NCBI GenBank assembly: GCA_029880245.1
Contig: JAOUOR010000004.1
Location: 1-54,273 of the forward strand
Reading direction: 5' to 3'
Origin: Alphaproteobacteria bacterium
GTDB lineage: Bacteria > Pseudomonadota > Alphaproteobacteria > Micavibrionales > Micavibrionaceae
Length of the DNA stretch: 54,273 bases
The notes under the pieces were generated by a model. It was not told where the DNA came from. It did no database searches and saw only the letters and a list, made by a program, of their open reading frames with translations. How positions within the stretch are numbered: the first letter of the stretch is position 1; the number at the start of each line of letters is the position of its first letter. A program made the translations under genes and the position numbers. This document shows, one piece after another, positions 26,349 through 29,628 of the stretch.

Positions 26349-27197
26349 ATGAAAGAGCACAGGAAAAATTCTAGAATAAAGACACCGCTTACATCAAAGT
26401 GGATATGCTCTTATTTTCTTATTTTAGGCCTTTTCGTTTTCTCATCTTCAATGAGTACAGCAAATTCAGATATAGATGATATTCGATATCCGATTGAAGA
26501 ATGGGACCTGCATTTATTGAAGCTCATTGATAAAGGTCCTGTTTTACTAAAAGATTCTGAAGAATTCATACCTGAGCCTTTTCCGGCTAACAGCAGTGAA
26601 GAAACACAAGGTGAATTGGATTATCTTGTCGAACTGTCAAAAACTGCGCGTGATACAAAAACACTCAATATGATATTCGAAGAAAATGACAAGTTTTTTG
26701 TCTGGCAATCTTTTGCTGATGCAGGGATATTAGTAGAAGAAGACCAGAATGAAGCTTTTGAGAAGGTCATGGAGACTCTGAACCGGGAGCTTGGTTTTTT
26801 TATTCTGAAATATAAGAAATATTATTCAAGACCCAGACCATCGCAGTTAAGACCTTCACTAGAACGTGCTATAGATAACCCAGGACACGCGGCTTATCCT
26901 TCCGGCCACGCAACGCAGAGTTATGCGGCAGGCCTGATTTTGTCGAAAATGGATGAAGAAAATACAGATAAATATCTGGATGCTGCGCGGGCAATTGCAC
27001 ATAGACGAGAAATAGCCGGAGTGCACTATCCGAGCGATTCAAAAGCGGGGCAGATACTGGCGGAAAAAATTGTCAATAAATTATTGGAACTTCAAAAGTT
27101 TCAAACACAGTTGCAACAAGCCAAAGAGTCTTTTATAAAGGCTCCGGGCTTGGATAGTTACGAAATGCAAATGGTTGAAAAAACTGAGAAAGATTAA
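26349..27197 (+). CDS. Secreted or anchored PAP2-type acid phosphatase inserted between atpG and atpD
   Basis: 282 residues. An N-terminal hydrophobic segment (about residues 18-40, WICSYFLILGLFVFSSSMSTANS) suggests export. The PAP2/class A acid phosphatase motifs are complete: KYKKYYSRPRP (K-x6-RP), PSGHAT (PSGH, with the conserved His), and AHRREIAGVHYPSD (S/HR-x5-H-x3-D, nucleophile His). A charged C-terminal tail follows. It hydrolyses phosphomonoesters or lipid-linked pyrophosphates in the family; the substrate is unknown. Spacing is 24 bases from atpG and 18 bases to atpD, so it is co-transcribed with ATP synthase genes, which is not the usual content of this operon. Its own sequence is more AT-rich than atpG/atpD, suggesting insertion. 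Confidence 0.8.
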   Translation: MKEHRKNSRIKTPLTSKWICSYFLILGLFVFSSSMSTANSDIDDIRYPIEEWDLHLLKLIDKGPVLLKDSEEFIPEPFPANSSEETQGELDYLVELSKTARDTKTLNMIFEENDKFFVWQSFADAGILVEEDQNEAFEKVMETLNRELGFFILKYKKYYSRPRPSQLRPSLERAIDNPGHAAYPSGHATQSYAAGLILSKMDEENTDKYLDAARAIAHRREIAGVHYPSDSKAGQILAEKIVNKLLELQKFQTQLQQAKESFIKAPGLDSYEMQMVEKTEKD

Positions 27198-28664: not shown

Positions 28665-28699
28665 GTCATCCCCGCGCAAGCGGGGATCTGATTTTTTTT
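28665..28699 (+). terminator. GTCAT-type palindrome followed by T8, partial terminator after atpD
   Basis: GTCAT at 28665 opens the element; ATCCCCGC (28668-28675) pairs perfectly with GCGGGGAT (28680-28687) around GCAA. After CTGA there is a run of eight T (28692-28699). It belongs to the dispersed palindrome family but has all parts of an intrinsic terminator; because atpC lies downstream it would act as an attenuator. Confidence 0.6.
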
Positions 28700-28724
28700 A
28701 AACTACAGAGATCGCAGAGCGCGC
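28695..28724 (+). repeat. Left inverted repeat of the GxxExxY element (copy A)
   Basis: 28695-28710 reads TTTTTAAACTACAGAG and is inverted at 29613-29628 with 15 of 16 bases matching. The repeat continues as ATCGCAGAGCGCGCAG, the inverse of the CTCTGCG-rich copy at 29123-29151. It lies 15 bases before the small secreted-protein gene. Confidence 0.7.
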
Positions 28725-28741
28725 AGAAGAGGGGAGAGGAA

Positions 28742-29119
28742 ATGAAGGACTTTTTTAGTATATTTTCTTTTATAATATTTTTCGTTTTCTTATCATCTCC
28801 TGCATTAGCAACCGAGACTTATGAATGCCTATATTCACATTACAGTAATAAAGAAGGTTTGCATGATGCCGAGAAAAACTTTCTATTGACGTTTGTTATA
28901 GATAAGGAAGCCAATAAATCTTATATCGTAGGGAACAACGGAAGCAACGAAGTGAAATATATTGATGGTTATGGTGTTTCTTTTGTTGAAATAACACAAG
29001 TTGGAAATATTATGACCACAGCCATAGATTCAGAAATGAATTCTGTTCATAGTAGACACAGTATCCTTTCTGGGAAACTGATACCATCCCAATATTATGG
29101 GCAATGTGTAAAAAGATAA
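28742..29119 (+). CDS. Small secreted protein of unknown function
   Basis: 125 residues. A clear signal peptide (MKDFFSIFSFIIFFVFLSSPALA, cleavage after ALA at about 23) leads a mature part with one cysteine near the start (TYECLYSHY) and one near the end (YYGQCVKR), possibly a disulfide. The middle alternates hydrophobic and polar residues like a beta-sheet domain. I do not recognise a family. A GGGGAGAGGAA ribosome site directly precedes the ATG. It lies between atpD and the GxxExxY gene, bounded by inverted copies of a CTCTGCG-rich repeat. Confidence 0.6.
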   Translation: MKDFFSIFSFIIFFVFLSSPALATETYECLYSHYSNKEGLHDAEKNFLLTFVIDKEANKSYIVGNNGSNEVKYIDGYGVSFVEITQVGNIMTTAIDSEMNSVHSRHSILSGKLIPSQYYGQCVKR

Positions 29120-29122
29120 AAA

Positions 29123-29151
29123 ATCTCTGCGATCTCTGCGCCCTCTGTAGT
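29123..29151 (+). repeat. Central CTCTGCG-rich repeat (copy B)
   Basis: ATCTCTGCGATCTCTGCGCC followed by CTCTGTAG. It is in the same orientation as copy C at 29606 and inverted relative to copy A at 28701. It sits between the secreted-protein gene and the GxxExxY gene. Confidence 0.7.
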
Positions 29152-29183
29152 CAAAAAAATAGTTTATAACAAAAGAAACAAAT

Positions 29184-29600
29184 ATGACCGATAACAACAT
29201 AACAAACTTTCCTGATTTGGGCGGCGAATTGACACGGGATGTTATTGGCTGCGCGATTGAAGTGCACAAATATTTTGGTCCCGGCTTGCTGGAAAATATT
29301 TATGAGCAATGTCTTGCGATAGAGCTTGTTAATAAAGGTTTTGACGTTCAGGTTCAAACAGCGATGCCAGTCAATTACAAAGACAATATATTTGAAAACG
29401 CTTATAAAATGGATTTATGGGTGAATAAAAAACTGGTTGTTGAGCTTAAGGCCGTTGACAAGGTATTACCCGTTCACGAGGCTCAAATTCTGAGCTATAT
29501 GAAGCTATCTAAATCTCCTTTGGGATTGCTGATAAATTTTAATGCAAAACTGTTGAAAGATGGTATAAAGCGTTATGCTTTGAGTGAGCATAAAAAATAA
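29184..29600 (+). CDS. GxxExxY family protein, PD-(D/E)xK-like
   Basis: 138 residues. It contains FGPGLLENIYEQCL, the G-x-x-E-x-x-Y motif naming the family, preceded by GGELTRDVIGCAIEVHKYFGPG. The later segment YKMDLWVNKKLVVELKAVDKV has an Asp, then E-x-K spacing like the nuclease fold core (D ... ExK). Function unproven in the family. The gene lies between atpD and atpC and is bordered by CTCTGCG-rich repeats in the same orientation (29123-29151 and 29606-29624). It is preceded by an A-rich stretch with no strong ribosome site. Confidence 0.85.
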   Translation: MTDNNITNFPDLGGELTRDVIGCAIEVHKYFGPGLLENIYEQCLAIELVNKGFDVQVQTAMPVNYKDNIFENAYKMDLWVNKKLVVELKAVDKVLPVHEAQILSYMKLSKSPLGLLINFNAKLLKDGIKRYALSEHKK

Positions 29601-29605
29601 AAAAA

Positions 29606-29628
29606 CTGCGCACTCTGTAGTTTTAAAA
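29606..29628 (+). repeat. Right repeat of the GxxExxY element (copy C)
   Basis: CTGCGCACTCTGTAGTTTT followed by AAAA. It is a direct copy of the end of repeat B and the inverse of repeat A. It ends 9 bases before the atpC start and so contributes to the atpC leader. Confidence 0.7.

Follow-up and report, generated by a model that had tools for sequence, protein, structure and literature searches.

What kind of element separates the ATP synthase genes atpD and atpC in the 54,273-nucleotide stretch of DNA analysed here (the window), and by which enzyme might it have moved? The insert at this junction is about 0.9 kb long (Table 1). The first-pass annotation had placed a candidate mobile element within the atp operon, and the identification of the neighbouring genes as atpD and atpC agrees with this. 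Both ORFs that it had described, for a secreted protein and a GxxExxY protein, lie where they were claimed to be, the former with a signal-peptide-like start and the latter with matches to TIGR04256 and PF13366. No DDE, HUH or tyrosine-recombinase enzyme was found inside the element, whose two ORFs are the GxxExxY gene and a passenger without a family match, so that its description as free of a transposase also stands. A second extra gene of the atp operon, encoding a PAP2-phosphatase-like protein, is located between atpG and atpD (26349-27197).

Table 1. Features of the atpD-atpC insert and its left border, in window coordinates.
Feature	Coordinates	Strand	Remarks
Outer ends	28695-28710 (TTTTTAAACTACAGAG) and 29613-29628 (reverse complement TTTTAAAACTACAGAG)		15 of 16 bases equal, read directly
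Palindrome ATCCCCGC-GCAA-GCGGGGAT, followed by a T run	28668..28687	.	just beyond the left end
Array A, left end, TTTTTTAAACTACAGAGATCGCAGAGCGCGCAGA	28694..28727	+	inverted relative to B and C; score above every shuffle
Passenger ORF, 125 aa, secreted, no Pfam/NCBIfam family	28742..29119	+	signal-peptide-like start
Array B, inner	29126..29159	-	inverted relative to A, direct relative to C
GxxExxY protein, 138 aa, Cas4/lambda-exonuclease-like PD-(D/E)XK nuclease (predicted)	29184..29600	+	TIGR04256, PF13366, structure model
Array C, right end, CTGCGCACTCTGTAGTTTTAAAA	29606..29628	-	inverted relative to A

The inverted outer ends were seen again at the coordinates given by the first-pass annotation. 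Arrays A and B form an inverted arm pair of 34 nt with 82% identity, and A and C one of 23 nt with 87% identity (28695-28717 against 29606-29628). Their local alignment scores are 38 and 31, respectively, compared with a best score of 26 in 300 shuffles of the region. With up to two mismatches, TCTGCGNYCTCTGYG occurs four times in the 54-kb window, every time in array A or B, and this count was reached in 0 of 100 shuffles. The claim of a CTCTGCG-rich repeat present three times thus holds for the positions of A, B and C, but C consists of two short units only, and CTCTGCG is not the specific word of such repeats but one of many array types. The palindrome beyond the left end is a separate terminator-like repeat, and array A of two relatives, G057 and G046, adjoins one too.

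The GxxExxY protein matches TIGR04256 with an E value of 5e-43 (146.2 bits, cut-off 35) and PF13366 (PDDEXK_3) with an E value of 1e-41 (142.3 bits, cut-off 22). A comparison of 65 sequences shows ten invariant residues: G32, G34, E37, Y40, D77, E87, K89, Q101, N118 and F119. The set E37-D77-E87-K89-Q101 is complete in 112 of 113 array-flanked genes. A structure model of the window protein (pLDDT 89.7, pTM 0.83) was compared with solved structures by Foldseek. The best match is Cas4 SSO0001 (4ic1, E 2.7e-4), followed by lambda exonuclease, with modest TM-scores; a sequence search of the PDB found no relative. The protein is thus modelled as a Cas4/lambda-exonuclease-like nuclease by its fold and its D, ExK and Q active-site residues, and nuclease activity is predicted. 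Between the window genome (G000) and G057 the GxxExxY proteins are 81% identical and their genes 73.5%, which is a sign of purifying selection. A GxxExxY gene is present in 35 of 95 relatives, in 58 of 299 genomes of the phylum and in 8 of 72,556 plasmid records. PADLOC and PHROGs searches gave no match, and a role in anti-phage defence was rejected on the PADLOC result. Carriage by phages was likewise rejected, as no viral relative could be confirmed in IMG/VR. Two GxxExxY genes without arrays (L038 and L039, in G008 and G011) have altered catalytic residues, as if they had been immobilised or repurposed.

To place the window element among other GxxExxY loci, the best inverted match between the left and right 150-200-nt flanks of each gene was compared with shuffles, and control genes served as a second null. 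In the order, 24 of 32 loci have matched inverted arrays; the wider phylum adds 26 of 29, and named loci 64 of 80. None of 57 control loci has an inverted flank match (atpC 0/29, fabI 0/28). The named loci come from Bacteroidota, Planctomycetota, Verrucomicrobiota, Acidobacteria, Chloroflexi, Cyanobacteria, desulfobacterial lineages, several candidate phyla and Archaea (L188). Overall, when the search was widened, arrays flank 114 of 141 GxxExxY loci from more than ten phyla including Archaea; the 27 loci without an array match are explained in part by cut contigs or distant ends. The first-pass annotation had suggested that GxxExxY genes lie beside CTCTGCG-like repeats in unrelated phyla. This was right but too narrow, and the outcome that it had named as refuting, that no other GxxExxY gene is flanked by the repeat, is not what the search returned.

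Each array consists of two to four tandem units of 8-10 nt and is inverted across the gene, and each GxxExxY gene tends to have an array of its own. The tandem repeat lag in the arms is mostly 8, 9 or 10, and typical words are CACAGAG, CACTGAG, CACCAAG, CGCAAAG, CACGAAG, CACGAAT and ACGGAG. Additional copies of an element's array are found within 1.5 kb at 37 of the 114 loci. At L192, for example, the element is located at leuD-leuB, and palindromes of its array are found at leuC-leuD and after leuB. At L159 (2819-3462) both ends of the GxxExxY element are complete array palindromes, each containing a terminator-like hairpin, so that the gene looks enclosed by a pair of palindromes.

Protein identity correlates with array similarity (rho 0.178, above all 1000 permutations), also when only cross-phylum pairs are considered (rho 0.142, matched by 0 of 2000 permutations). 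Although significant, this covariation is weak, and joint travel of proteins and arrays could produce it without any binding. For a SAR324 bacterium and a cyanobacterium, GxxExxY identity is 77% and the arrays are closely similar; a Methanosarcinales archaeon and Candidatus Hatepunaea have GxxExxY proteins with 76% identity and a CAGAG-type word in common. Some cross-phylum pairs thus combine similar arrays with a protein identity of 75-77%. From the sequences, this fits a joint lateral transfer of the nuclease and its ends.

Two additional GxxExxY loci are present in the window genome. One lies between ffh and rpsP, with the ends AACCACCAAGACACAAAGACACCAAG and CTTAGTGTCTTGGAGACTTGGTGGTT, and the other, truncated, between fabB and fabI, with the left end TAACGCGAAGGTTCGAAGGAACGAAG and an inverted counterpart at the right (gene names read from sequence). 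Their ends differ, so each copy has its own word, which is equal on both sides. The word of the window element also occurs at three more sites of the same genome in protein-less palindromes of about 75-80 nt. Such palindromes with the window's array, about 65-80 nt long, are present in G000, G001, G010 and G016, and a reversed-pattern control gave zero. Window-type arrays (ACTACAGAGN{4,5}CAGAG) occur in 7 of 59 genomes, the reversed control in none. All seven have GxxExxY genes, compared with about 22 of the 59 overall. In G016 (L237-L247) about 12 satellite sites carry the window-type word, mostly beside GC-rich palindromes of the ATCCCCGC..GCGGGGAT kind, and form BIME-like mosaics. Near-identical element copies at different sites of one genome were not found among 40 fetched regions. 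Transposition within a genome would thus be rare, old or confined to the palindromes.

The clearest view of insertion and decay is provided by the trpD-trpC junction in a single genus, that of G206, where four sites are empty, at least 12 are occupied and two hold remnants. At the empty sites (G119, G111, G103 and G138) the ATGA overlap of the two genes is intact. The occupied sites carry elements of mostly about 465-610 nt. There, the trpD stop codon TGA touches the array or lies a few nucleotides away (for example, TGA immediately followed by ACCGCAAAGG), and a separate ATG begins trpC. Of the remnants, that of G202 is a single array in decay, and that of G278 a scar of the right end. Empty, occupied and remnant sites within one genus argue for insertion and decay. 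The first-pass annotation had named vertical conservation of the arrangement in all relatives as evidence against mobility. This is not observed at trpD-trpC, nor at the window junction, since the other members of the genus examined have no GxxExxY gene directly upstream of atpC. Element mobility is strongly supported.

The target duplications that the first-pass annotation had proposed to look for do not appear at any fixed length across 110 loci, but in single cases. The fabB-fabI insert lies between GGATTAAATAT and GGATTAGATAT, a duplication of GGATTARATAT, and at least one relative without the insert (L260) retains the GGATTAA end of fabB. ATGA is present on both sides of many trpD-trpC inserts; a 4-nt target duplication is possible there, and selection keeping both genes would give the same result. 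An apparent excess of duplications of length 1-2 was rejected as an artefact of where local alignments end. Placement within operons is strongly oriented. Among 104 loci with readable neighbours, 75 share the strand of both neighbours and 3 are opposed to both (p 5e-19), and the median distance from the upstream stop codon to the array is 7 nt. In G309 (L320, 1440-1600) about 155 nt have been inserted relative to the close species G333 (L324), with duplication of the right array, the junction and the start region downstream.

At atpD-atpC the layout A - ORF - B - GxxExxY - C is found in three genera, represented by G000, G057 (L012) and G046 (L014), each time with an unrelated passenger: the 125-aa secreted protein in the window, a different 120-aa secreted protein in G057 and a MUG113/T5orf172 protein in G046. 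Homology of the two secreted passengers was considered and rejected, as a comparison of G000 with G057 found no similarity between them. A 52% homologue of the window passenger, without arrays, is present in G072 from another family of the order. Thus, the ORF is a real gene, and passengers are probably captured. In G013 the junction holds a GxxExxY gene and a membrane ORF. A DUF2513 protein adjoins GxxExxY in G007, between apparent sucC and sucD. Various other small genes are seen at atpD-atpC of relatives, and in G021, of another genus, this junction carries an inverted array whose word is of the S23 type and which encloses no protein gene (L050). The identities of GxxExxY, atpD and atpC disagree among the atpD-atpC loci. 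The sharing of this junction may reflect either descent from a common ancestor, with turnover of the passengers, or repeated invasions.

Taken together, the segment probably belongs to a large class of small mobile elements, in which a GxxExxY gene lies between inverted tandem arrays and its nuclease acts through these arrays. In such a mechanism, several GxxExxY subunits would bind the array units on both sides, which they could recognise in double-stranded form or as hairpins of the palindrome in single-stranded DNA. The Cas4-/lambda exonuclease-like nuclease would then cut or trim the ends, and the freed piece would be joined at a new gene junction, probably by host repair enzymes. Transcription comes from the host operon, and the element therefore needs no promoter of its own. 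At the atpD-atpC loci of the window and its relatives the extra array copy encloses an exchangeable passenger gene, and the system can thereby also carry or capture genes. The first-pass suggestion that the element is mobilised by its own nuclease-like protein receives indirect support from the protein-array covariation, the intact active site and the satellite palindromes; that the nuclease itself drives the movement through the arrays is what we infer from them.

The nuclease could also act in a different way. In a homing-type element it would cut the empty conserved junction, and homologous recombination through the host genes on either side would then copy the element into it, with the arrays serving regulation or end protection. 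PD-(D/E)XK homing enzymes exist. Occupation of one junction in several genera (atpD-atpC in G000, G057, G013 and G046) and of trpD-trpC in many species of one genus would be expected of homing, as would flanks made of conserved operon genes and the lack of amplification within a genome. However, one array type recurs at many unrelated junctions, also without a gene, the array word and not the junction covaries with the protein, and element-free trpD-trpC sites have no array. We therefore regard homing as unlikely.

A reading with GxxExxY as cargo appears still less probable; in it a different enzyme would disperse the arrays and palindromes, much as a transposase encoded elsewhere in a genome mobilises MITEs. 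In its favour, arrays also enclose other genes in the window, G057 and G046, S23 genes have arrays of their own around them, and most palindromes are gene-less. Yet array word and GxxExxY sequence covary even between phyla, a single protein family occupies array elements in more than ten phyla with its active site preserved, and window-type arrays were found only in genomes having GxxExxY genes. The inverted arrays might alternatively be RNA stems, that is, an attenuator or a processing site as in intervening sequences (IVS) cut by RNase III, with the gene as passenger of an RNA-level device. The location of the elements within operons in transcription orientation would suit this reading, and RNase III excises S23 elements in rRNA (PMC4990558). 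Against it, arm mismatches have no G-U bias (115 compatible and 117 incompatible at GxxExxY loci, 8 and 20 at S23 elements), so the arms match as DNA rather than as an RNA stem. A stem would not need the tandem word that the arrays keep, and the modelled protein fold is of a DNA-nuclease type. An RNA-stem function as the main role was rejected on the arm mismatches, and we consider the whole reading very improbable.

If the segment is a nuclease-mobilised array element, it would represent a mobility system that relies on a Cas4-like nuclease and has no transposase or recombinase of known type. Such a system would reach from phylum to phylum and into Archaea, with few signs of being carried by phages or plasmids. 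GxxExxY, a curated family without a known role, thereby receives a testable one, and the class would account for common intergenic repeats of the CACAGAG, CACGAAG, CGCAAAG and CACGAAT types. The covariation of array words with a 138-aa nuclease invites study of its DNA specificity. A wider proposal is that GxxExxY nucleases mobilise a major, hitherto unrecognised class of prokaryotic elements. Their tandem-word array ends would have protein-matched specificity, and the elements would insert in operons, spawn palindromic satellites and capture or exchange passengers, with the S23 IVS as a sister branch built on a four-helix protein. This we put forward tentatively, at slightly less than even confidence. 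The open literature mentions GxxExxY by name in passing only, with nothing on repeats, and searches of it for the repeats, PF13366 and S23 together with mobile elements returned no description of such a class (subscription journals and preprints were outside the scope). Thus, the protein family is already known, and the element class appears undescribed in the open literature searched. Its newness rests on this limited search and on the nuclease being, as we infer, the mobility enzyme.

Among known systems, the S23 intervening sequences have the same architecture, with one small ORF enclosed by terminal inverted repeats. The IVS of Coxiella burnetii rRNA, which encodes S23, has terminal inverted repeats and tandem heptamers beside the start codon, and its origin was described as unclear (PMC4990558). 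The window element likewise has an ORF between inverted repeats with short tandem units. S23 four-helix-bundle genes outside rRNA in the same order (L078-L095) are also found in operons, 14 of 18 between matched inverted arrays of other words (e.g., AGTTACAAG and GAATCTCCG) and 15 of 18 oriented with the operon. GxxExxY differs in being an unrelated nuclease, in its sites, which lie between protein genes and not in rRNA genes both in the window and at the other loci, and in arm mismatches without sign of a kept RNA stem. The common architecture bears on what rRNA intervening sequences are.

Cas4, RecB and lambda exonuclease resemble the modelled GxxExxY protein in fold and in the D-ExK-Q layout of the active site, whereas GxxExxY is short and single-domain, has no CRISPR or phage recombination partner alongside and, in the window sequence, no cysteine cluster. 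With integron gene cassettes the atpD-atpC loci share the swapping of a passenger beside a conserved gene, but here no tyrosine recombinase or attC site is seen, there is one passenger and inverted tandem arrays form both ends. MITEs and DDE insertion sequences also have terminal inverted repeats and gene-less derivatives; in our elements there is no DDE transposase, no fixed-length target duplication was found, and the ends are tandem units that differ from element to element. The multicopy nucleotide sequences of Geobacter are intergenic palindromic families with direct repeats of short units, and the part of that report considered here describes no linked protein (PMC2996986). By their description, they may include such array palindromes. 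A functional parallel is found in REP/BIME with RAYT and in IS200/IS605, where small palindromic intergenic multicopy satellites likewise accompany a small gene with matching ends. Those systems use HUH (Y1) tyrosine transposases and one imperfect hairpin, whereas GxxExxY is a PD-(D/E)XK nuclease, hence not an enzyme of that type, and its ends are arrays of tandem words.
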